This document shows, piece after piece, positions 29,546 through 48,773 of a stretch of 64,000 nt of DNA. Each line of letters begins with the position of its first letter. Position 1 is the stretch's first letter. A program made the translations under genes and the position numbers. Source of the DNA: Colwellia sp. (GTDB lineage: Bacteria; Pseudomonadota; Gammaproteobacteria; Enterobacterales; Alteromonadaceae); assembly GCF_013215345.1 (NCBI RefSeq), contig NZ_JABSOV010000013.1, forward strand, positions 1 to 64,000. Direction: 5' to 3'. Under the pieces are notes generated by a model. That model did not search any database and was not told where the DNA came from. It saw only the letters and a program-made list of their open reading frames with translations.

Positions 29546-30523
29546 TTAAAAGTTAACGGTCTTTTTAATTGCTTCATATACTTTGAGGTGATCGCTAACA
29601 TACTCTTTTTCTAACGCTAATGGGTATGGCGTATCTAGTCCACATACTCGAGCAATAGGTGACTCTAAATGTAAGAAACATTCACTTTGAATAGTCGCGG
29701 CAATTTCACTAGCAAAACCTGCGGTTAACGGTGCTTCTTGACTGACAAGTAAACGCCCTGTTTTCATCACTGAGTTACTAATGGTGTCGATATCCCAAGG
29801 TAAAATAGTACGTAAATCTACCACCTCACAAGAAATACCATCGTTACTGGCCAATTGCGCGGCTTTTTCAATGATTTCCATTTGTGCGCCCCAAGCGAGT
29901 AAGGTGATATCAGTGCCCGTTTGTACCACTTCTGCTTTACCTAGTGGTAACTGGTAATCTTCTTCTGGCACTTCTCCAACCGAGGCGCGATATAGGCGCT
30001 TAGGTTCAAAAAACACCACCGGGTTATCATCACGAATAGAGGCAAGCAATAAGCCTTTAGCTTGATATGGATTACGAGGAATAACGACCTTTAAACCTGG
30101 AGTATGAGCAAAATAAGCTTCTGGTGATTGACTATGGTATAAACCACCGGCAATACCGCCGCCGTATGGAGTACGAATAGTCAGTTTACCGACATTAAAT
30201 TCATTGCCGGTACGGTAACGAAATTTAGCTGCTTCATTGACGATTTGATCAAAGGCTGGAAATATGTAATCAGCAAATTGAATTTCAGCAATAGCAACAC
30301 TGCCTTGAGCAGCTAAGCCATTGGCAAAACCAATAATGCCCTGCTCTACTAACGGGGTATTGAAACAACGTGCTTTACCATACTTCTCTTGTAAGCCACT
30401 AGTGGCACGAAAAACACCGCCAAAATGACCAACATCTTCACCAAAACATACCGTGCGGTCATTGTCCGCCATGGCAATATCAAGTGCGCTATTAATAGCA
30501 TGTAATAAATTAATTTTCGCCAT
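29546..30523 (-). CDS. bkdA2: Branched-chain 2-oxoacid dehydrogenase E1 beta
   Basis: [49 protein letters not shown]. Confidence 0.93.
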
Positions 30524-30525
30524 GA

Positions 30526-30612
30526 TTAGAGTTTCCCTGCCGCTGTAGTTGGGTAAGCTTCATGAGAGTCAGTGTTGATATCACACACTTGGTCAATATA
30601 GATTTGCGTCAT
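30526..30612 (-). CDS. Mini-ORF 2 (28 aa) [28 protein letters not shown], between bkdA1 and bkdA2
   Basis: ATG to TAA, 87 nt; TAATCATG junctions on both sides; homologous to mini-ORF 1 and to the bkdA1 C-terminus (EAYPFTAGKF). Confidence 0.5.
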
Positions 30613-30614
30613 GA

Positions 30615-30701
30615 TTAAAATTTCCCTGCAGCTGTAGTTGGATAGGCTTCATGAAGATCATTGTTGATAATACACTCATTATCAGTATAAATTTGCGTCA
30701 T
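30615..30701 (-). CDS. Mini-ORF 1 (28 aa) [28 protein letters not shown], between bkdA1 and bkdA2
   Basis: ATG to TAA, 87 nt; TAATCATG junctions on both sides; tandem copy offset by 89 bp from mini-ORF 2. Confidence 0.5.
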   Translation of the reverse strand: MTQIYTDNECIINNDLHEAYPTTAAGKF

Positions 30702-30703
30702 GA

Positions 30704-31885
30704 TTAGAATTTCCCTGCGGTAAACGGATAAGCTTCTGGGTATTTTTTGATGTGAACTTTCACTTCATCTAACTGTGCTTGAAGTTGTGCTGATGGCACA
30801 TCATAAACATCGGTGATCATGGTATCGATATGCGGCTTGTCTATTTTCTCTGCCACTTTTACTGCCGCTAACACTTGCTCTCTATACTGCTCGTACAAAG
30901 CTGTGTCTTGTGCTTCATCCCACCAGTTTTGCTTCAACATCCAGTTTTTCATGCGCAAAATAGGATCATTACTTTGCCATTTAGCTTCTTCTTCTTTTGT
31001 TCGATAACCTGATGGATCATCTGAGGTAGAATGTGCGCCAAGACGATAAGACATCGCTTCGATTAATACCGGTTTACTTTCTTTTACCGCATAAGCGCGA
31101 GCAATTTGTGTTGCTTTTAGTACCGCTAGAATATCGTTGCCATCAATACGAATGGTTTTAATACCATAGCCAACACCACGCGAAGCAATGCCGTTACCTC
31201 TAAACTGCTCTTCAGCAGGAGTCGAAATGGCATAACCATTGTTTCGACAGAAAAAGATAACTGGCGCCTCTTGTACTGCCGCCATATTTAAACCGGCATG
31301 GAAGTCGCCTTCTGATGCAGCCCCTTCGCCAAAGTAGCAAATAGTCACAGCATCAAGACCTTGTAATTTTTGCCCATAAGCATAACCAGTCGCTTGTGGA
31401 ATTTGTGTGGCAAGTGTCGAAGAAACCGTCATACAGTTCAGCGCTTTAGAGCCATAGTGTATTGGCATTTGACGGCCTTTACCTAAATCTTCCGCATTAC
31501 TAAACAGTTGGTTCATAAAGTTTTCAAGGCTAAAGCCACGATACATTAAGGCACCCTGTTCACGATATTGCATCATGATCATATCTTGCGGCTCTAACCC
31601 CGCAGCACCACCAACGCTGGCAGCTTCTTCACCTAAAGCTGTCATGTAAAAGCTTAAACGCCCTTGGCGCTGCGATGCTACCATGCGTTCATCTAATACA
31701 CGATGAAAGGCTAGCGTCTGATATATTTTTGTCGCTAATGTTTGGTCAATATCAGGTAAATCAGCACCCGGATAGGTGGTGCCGTCTTGATGTAAAATTC
31801 TCAATTCAGGAATTTCAACACTGTGGCCATCGATAAAAGTAGGCTGATGCACTACCGGTCCATCATTATAAAGTTCTGTGCTCAT
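30704..31885 (-). CDS. bkdA1: Branched-chain 2-oxoacid dehydrogenase E1 alpha
   Basis: TPP motif YFGEGAASEGDFHAGLNMAAVQEAPVIFFCRNNGYAIST; YRLGAHSTSDDPSGYR. Confidence 0.94.
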   Translation of the reverse strand: MSTELYNDGPVVHQPTFIDGHSVEIPELRILHQDGTTYPGADLPDIDQTLATKIYQTLAFHRVLDERMVASQRQGRLSFYMTALGEEAASVGGAAGLEPQDMIMMQYREQGALMYRGFSLENFMNQLFSNAEDLGKGRQMPIHYGSKALNCMTVSSTLATQIPQATGYAYGQKLQGLDAVTICYFGEGAASEGDFHAGLNMAAVQEAPVIFFCRNNGYAISTPAEEQFRGNGIASRGVGYGIKTIRIDGNDILAVLKATQIARAYAVKESKPVLIEAMSYRLGAHSTSDDPSGYRTKEEEAKWQSNDPILRMKNWMLKQNWWDEAQDTALYEQYREQVLAAVKVAEKIDKPHIDTMITDVYDVPSAQLQAQLDEVKVHIKKYPEAYPFTAGKF

Positions 31886-47853: not shown

Positions 47854-47876
47854 AGGCGTTAAAGGTACTTAAAGTG

Positions 47877-48002
47877 AACGGTACCTTTATTAACGGTACC
47901 TATAGTAACGGTATCTGTACAAAGTACAGGTATTAACGACACATGGTTAACGTACTAGGTTTAACGTACTAAATTTAATGTACCAAATTTAATGTACTAA
48001 GT
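47877..48002. repeat. Short tandem repeat array between lpxA and lpxB (14-15 bp units, GTAC-GTTAA core)
   Basis: Five 14-bp units at 47933-48002 (ttaacgacacatgg, ttaacgtactaggt, ttaacgtactaaat, ttaatgtaccaaat, ttaatgtactaagt) and related 15-bp units at 47877-47921 (aacggtacctttatt, aacggtacctatagt, aacggtatctgtaca). Confidence 0.85.
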
Positions 48003-48773
48003 TTAACGAATGATGCCGCGATTAGATTCTTTGATTGAATCACAAAACAGTTGTAATTCTGGGGATTGTGCTGGCATTTCGCTGATTAGCTTTAATGCTT
48101 CATCAACGGAAAAACCTTGGCGGTACATGATCTTATAAGCACGTTTAATGGTTAAGATAGTTTCTTTACTAAAGCCACGACGCTTTAGCCCTTCACTATT
48201 TAAACCAAAAGGTTTTGCTGGTTGCCCTGACGCCATAACATAGGCAGGCACATCTTTAAGTATTAAGGCATTACCGGCTATAAAGCTATGGGCGCCAATA
48301 CGACAGAACTGATGTACTCCTACCATGCCACCAATAATGGCATGATCACCAACGTGAACATGACCAGCAATAGAAGCATTATTAGCAAAAATACAATGGC
48401 TGCCAACTATACAATCGTGGGCAACATGGGTATAAGCCATAAATAAATTATTACTGCCAATTTGAGTAATACTATTATCTTGAATAGTGCCACGGTGAAT
48501 AGTACAGGACTCACGAAAGGTATTATTGTCACCAATAACTAACTCTGTTGGTTCACCTGCGTACTTAAGATCCTGACAGTCTTCACCAATACTGGCGAAT
48601 TGAAAAATACGGTTACCTTTACCTAACCGTGTTGGGCCATTAATAACCACATGTGAGCTAATTTCACAGTTATCACCAATAACAACATTACTGGCGATAT
48701 AGGTCCATGGACCTATGGAAACATTTTTGCCAATCACTGCGCCTGGCTCAATAATAGCTTGGGGATGAATCAT
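48003..48773 (-). CDS. lpxA: UDP-N-acetylglucosamine acyltransferase
   Basis: [26 protein letters not shown]; hexapeptide repeats; [29 protein letters not shown]. Confidence 0.97.

Follow-up and report, generated by a model that had tools for sequence, protein, structure and literature searches.

A tandem array of mini-cistrons between bkdA1 and bkdA2 in one Colwellia clade, a candidate translational bridge

Introduction

Why should two short open reading frames stand in tandem between bkdA1 and bkdA2, genes for two subunits of one enzyme complex, and what becomes of ribosomes that reach them? Genes for subunits of one complex are overrepresented among close gene pairs, and in three Escherichia coli gene pairs 30 to 95% of reinitiation is left with a 2-nt gap, while a 38-nt gap nearly abolishes it and no more of the upstream gene than its final 15 nt is needed (PMC10666635). 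An untranslated insert of 180 nt should therefore uncouple bkdA2 from bkdA1, whereas complete mini-cistrons should not, and for this reason we read the array as a candidate bridge. Here, we describe the array in the window, i.e., the whole 64,000-nucleotide stretch that was analyzed of DNA from Colwellia, a genus of marine bacteria of cold waters, together with its distribution and evolution among relatives.

Results

The layout of the locus is given in Table 1. Coordinates and translation confirmed the two tandem 28-codon mini-ORFs of a preliminary description, with the peptides it quoted, and the TAA-TC-ATG that it reported at all three junctions (bkdA1/mini1, mini1/mini2, and mini2/bkdA2) is present in the sequence. 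The operon neighbors of the array encode E1-alpha, E1-beta, and E2 of the branched-chain 2-oxoacid dehydrogenase. The C terminus of bkdA1 reads EAYPFTAGKF, and the last ~38 nt of the gene contain the ribosome-binding site of the start codon that follows. Units 1 and 2 share 79% identity, and neither mini-ORF has any Pfam match. By TRF (period 89, 2.3 copies, score 286), the array stands far above every other tandem repeat of the window and so is not a product of chance. Moreover, the TAATCATG-to-TAATCATG pattern at the array spacing was found nowhere else in the window's genome. Elsewhere in the window, at 47860-48008, two more short tandem repeats, with periods of 15 and 14, lie near each other.

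Table 1. Features of the bkdA1-bkdA2 locus in the window
Feature	Position	Strand	Description
bkdA1	30704-31885	-	E1-alpha, branched-chain 2-oxoacid dehydrogenase; Pfam E1_dh (E 2e-98); PDB BCKDH E1-alpha chains (E 1e-120)
Coupling module 1 (predicted)	30702-30718	-	GCAGGGAAATTC-TAA-TC (SD-like GGGA, bkdA1 stop, 2-nt gap), then mini-ORF 1 ATG
Repeat unit 1	30613-30701	-	89 bp: ATG, 28-codon mini-ORF, TAA, TC
Mini-ORF 1	30615-30701	-	87 nt, 28 codons
Coupling module 2 (predicted)	30613-30629	-	GCAGGGAAATTT-TAA-TC, then mini-ORF 2 ATG
Repeat unit 2	30524-30612	-	89 bp
Mini-ORF 2	30526-30612	-	87 nt, 28 codons
Coupling module 3 (predicted)	30524-30540	-	GCAGGGAAACTC-TAA-TC, then bkdA2 ATG
bkdA2	29546-30523	-	E1-beta; Pfam Transket_pyr and Transketolase_C

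The bkdA1-bkdA2 junction was extracted in 57 genomes, the window's genome included. Thirteen of these, all Colwellia and all in one clade in both the bkdA2 tree and the bkdA1+bkdA2 tree, bear the array, with 18 mini-ORFs in total. Copy number varies between species from 0 to 3, in counts on which the possible collapse of identical units in short-read assemblies bears: three units occur at locus L040 (genome in one contig, 5,373,180 bp), two in the window's genome, L034, and L042, and one in nine other genomes. The two copies in L042 are identical and those in L040 nearly so, which shows ongoing duplication or homogenization. Five or more clade members lack the array (the placement of a sixth, L048, is not firm), and its presence or absence changed a minimum of four times on the tree. 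L036, with no copy, and L037, with one, are 99.5% identical over 1.1 kb upstream; because such near-identical relatives differ in having a copy, an essential role of the array is argued against. From this distribution we infer that the array probably arose once, in the clade ancestor, and was then lost repeatedly. A full unit was present at no other locus in 39 genomes of the genus (one locus per genome), and among 399 genomes of the family the only match outside the genus was a partial one of 36 nt. A mobile or dispersed element was thus ruled out, since the array occupies a single locus.

Two units depart from the common length. At L041, a 30-nt expansion keeps the frame and triples EAYP, while at L037 (G154:C13, C. 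marinimaniae) a 35-nt internal duplication shifts the frame of the single unit, so that its mini-ORF extends 14 nt beyond the start of bkdA2. The preliminary description had held that no stops or frameshifts had accumulated and had pointed to the junction in relatives as the place where its reading could fail. The window's own copies are indeed free of frameshifts; among relatives, both absent copies and the frameshifted C. marinimaniae copy came to light, which goes part of the way against that reading. In a further genome (L033, G183:C60), bkdA1 is 84% and bkdA2 98.5% identical to the window protein, identity drops upstream, and a second, partial bkdA2 is present; this pattern suggests recombination inside the operon or a mixed bin.

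Array junctions have a stop-to-start gap of 0 or 2 nt everywhere except at the frameshifted L037 unit, and the units end in GCNGGGAAANTNTAATC, with small variations, ahead of the ATG. The gap is likewise 0 or 2 nt in all 44 array-free genomes. Anti-Shine-Dalgarno (anti-SD) energy ranges from -4.3 to -6.8 kcal/mol at every array junction and is the same in array-free relatives, and bkdA2 has its own SD-like site. The coupling arrangement noted at the outset is supported, with the same geometry at nearly every junction in the clade. An RNA hairpin, attenuator, or processing element was ruled out, because the RNA of the array folds less than shuffled sequence in each of the 13 species and no terminator was found. 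An internal promoter for bkdA2 was also rejected: no sigma-70-like site lies on the coding strand, and the two weak ones on the opposite strand are at chance level.

The last ~38 nt of the unit, including the ribosome-binding site, align with the 3' end of bkdA1 (P < 1/2000), which upholds, for this part of the unit, the earlier proposal that the bkdA1 3' end was duplicated with the junction. The first 11 nt of the unit are those of the bkdA2 start in relatives (ATGGCGCAAAT), and its middle ~40 nt have no significant alignment to bkdA2, bkdA1, or the operon. A histidine-kinase gene of a sister-genus genome (G049; L098:507-542, G049:C101) contains 36 nt, SVIDQGCGIKPEFH, that match the unit middle in frame at 83%. 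This segment encodes the ATP-binding motif of the kinase, and ~0.3 such matches are expected over 399 genomes; the gene found no backing as a donor from orthologues in the genus, and a match so near the chance rate remains a lead. We propose that the array was born by duplication of the bkdA1-bkdA2 junction plus ~40 nt of other sequence in the ancestor of one Colwellia clade, and that recombination between direct repeats would then add and remove units, a deletion leaving an intact junction. The nearest copies of unit 1 among relatives are L034_1 and L038_1. The units of L034 and L038 diverge by 0.08, against a synonymous divergence of 0.50 in bkdA2; lateral transfer of the unit was not adopted, since differential loss from an old array of two unit types explains the low divergence equally well.

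Selection was evaluated on 16 full-length copies, with neutral simulation on the unit tree. For codons 2 to 17, pN/pS was 1.00 (82% of neutral runs at or below this value) and omega from inferred changes was 1.45 (59 nonsynonymous, 14 synonymous). For codons 18 to 28, by contrast, pN/pS was 0.30 (0.7% of neutral runs at or below) and omega 0.39 (11 nonsynonymous, 12 synonymous; P = 0.02), a signal absent from the other two frames. Codons 18 to 24, which precede both the SD and the last 15 nt, gave an omega of 0.40 (P = 0.049), and the tyrosine of the tail is retained in 18 of 18 mini-ORFs. No stop-making change occurred among the 96 inferred, against an expectation of 3.3 (P = 0.036), and all copies stayed stop-free in only 5% of neutral simulations (P = 0.053), so that the apparent surplus of open frames reaches no more than marginal significance. 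All these values are suggestive, as they come from few changes, a poorly resolved tree of 84-nt units whose uncertainty was ignored, and several tests. They suggest that the peptide body is free to vary and that the tail, where the ribosome-binding site overlaps it, is not entirely so. Purifying selection across the whole frame, as for a functional small protein, was not seen; only codons 18 to 28 appear constrained.

These results divide the earlier claims about the frames. The statement that the shared segment differs only synonymously is correct for the window's pair and does not extend to the 16 copies. Translation under constraint is upheld only in so far as frames are weakly kept open and the last 11 codons are moderately constrained; the dN/dS comparison that had been called for separates a constrained tail (omega 0.30 to 0.39) from an unconstrained body (1.0 to 1.5). 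Functional 28-residue microproteins, one of the roles first suggested, are not supported, given this body and the lack of the array in close relatives.

Discussion

In our view, the array is probably a bridge of mini-cistrons, akin to the mycobacterial interspersed repetitive units (MIRUs), through which termination-reinitiation from E1-alpha to E1-beta is preserved; in other respects it would be nearly neutral. Each unit would bring its own start, open frame, SD-like GGGA, stop, and 2-nt gap. A ribosome finishing bkdA1 would terminate, reinitiate on mini-ORF 1, then on mini-ORF 2, and then on bkdA2, so that E1-beta synthesis would stay coupled to that of E1-alpha across 180 nt, with the mini-peptides mostly by-products. 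Ribosomes probably pass in this way, translating the units and reinitiating, and selection on coupling may be what holds the frames open. Of the coupling spacers tuning stoichiometry that had been suggested, the units do appear as coupling bridges, and nothing indicates tuning. Against the bridge, C. marinimaniae (L037) tolerates a frameshifted unit that runs past the bkdA2 start; the SD-like site of bkdA2 itself may make coupling unneeded; and the conservation of codons 18 to 24 seems to exceed what coupling requires and is not predicted by the bridge model.

Some of the same observations could fit a neutral minisatellite, prone to slippage and untranslated or indifferently translated, with open frames left over from a recent origin and bkdA2 initiated from its own SD. 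An omega of about 1 in codons 2 to 17, the lack of the array in some clade members, the frameshifted L037 copy, and the marginal stop deficit all agree with it. We nevertheless regard it as unlikely, since it accounts neither for the absence of stops where 3.3 stop-making changes were expected nor for the low omega of codons 18 to 28, and since spacing and SD are intact at all junctions other than that of L037 and the sole other length change, the 30 nt in L041, is in frame. The constrained tail might instead be read as the mark of a functional microprotein or assembly peptide of 28 residues, whose copy of the E1-alpha C terminus touches E1-beta and, for example, shields it until E1-alpha arrives. 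The frame-specific signal, the invariant tyrosine, and the tripled EAYP in L041 favor such a peptide, as does the alignment of EAYPF with EHYPL, residues 391 to 395 of human E1-alpha, around Tyr393, which we take to sit at the alpha/beta contact. Tyr393Asn is a known maple syrup urine disease mutation (in a reference listed by PMC7603684). A functional 28-residue protein is, however, argued against because codons 2 to 17 are without amino-acid constraint. Likewise, no Pfam match exists, the array is missing in at least five clade members and all other relatives, the same tail is already supplied by E1-alpha, the tail DNA overlaps a ribosome-binding site that is itself expected to be conserved, and the statistic rests on few changes; we thus consider the peptide quite improbable. 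That the tail peptides act in trans while the E1 heterotetramer assembles co-translationally, in a dose set by the number of copies, is in our view very improbable.

Copy number could also be the selected trait, with each added bridging step lowering reinitiation so that the E1-alpha:E1-beta ratio would depend on the number of units, which would differ adaptively among species. An adaptive imbalance is not obvious, E1 being a 2:2 heterotetramer, and near-identical genomes differ by 0 versus 1 copy. The range of 0 to 3 copies among close species speaks for such a rheostat, as does the cost of a 2-nt gap, 5 to 70% of reinitiation in E. coli reporters (PMC10666635); on balance we find it very improbable.

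The array resembles MIRUs, such as the 77-bp ones repeated in tandem between senX3 and regX3, in being made of short tandem direct repeats in an intercistronic operon gap; its 89-bp units fall within the ~50 to 100 bp of such repeats. MIRU copy number varies between strains or species, as that of the array does between related genomes. In MIRUs, a small ORF within the unit is coupled to the start codon that follows, and every array unit has a small ORF (one frameshifted), a likeness of arrangement only, coupling being predicted here. However, MIRUs appear mobile and insert at start codons with a -4-nt overlap (PMC12548453). They are dispersed, whereas the array, across 39 genomes of the genus, occupies one locus, with a spacing of +2 nt and a 3' part derived from the neighboring gene. 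Furthermore, the senX3-regX3 MIRU region has been reported to drive independent expression of regX3 (PMC4213456), while the coding strand of the array has no promoter-like site. Thus, with MIRUs delimited by their published description, the array is not a MIRU: it is neither dispersed nor mobile and is locally born.

With termination-reinitiation gene pairs encoding subunits of one complex, the locus shares the 0- to 2-nt gap, well within the stop/start range of about -8 to +10 nt outside the frameshifted L037 unit, and an SD inside the upstream gene; it differs in the interposed complete mini-cistrons that preserve the coupled geometry. Short ORFs that deliver ribosomes to the next gene are known from the bicistronic designs of expression vectors (PMC12548453) and from the upstream ORF of CbrX-CbrA in Pseudomonas (PMC6591292). 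The likely job of the array ORFs is the same, yet these stand in tandem between two cistrons, vary in copy number, and derive from the junction itself.

The clade offers a natural series of otherwise similar operons with 0, 1, 2, or 3 putative reinitiation bridges in a gene pair of one complex, in which one can measure directly what each termination-reinitiation step costs and how selection acts on that cost. In addition, the frameshifted L037 unit is a natural experiment on the effect, if any, of breaking a unit. More broadly, these data suggest that no mobile element is needed for a MIRU-like arrangement to arise locally in a gammaproteobacterium.
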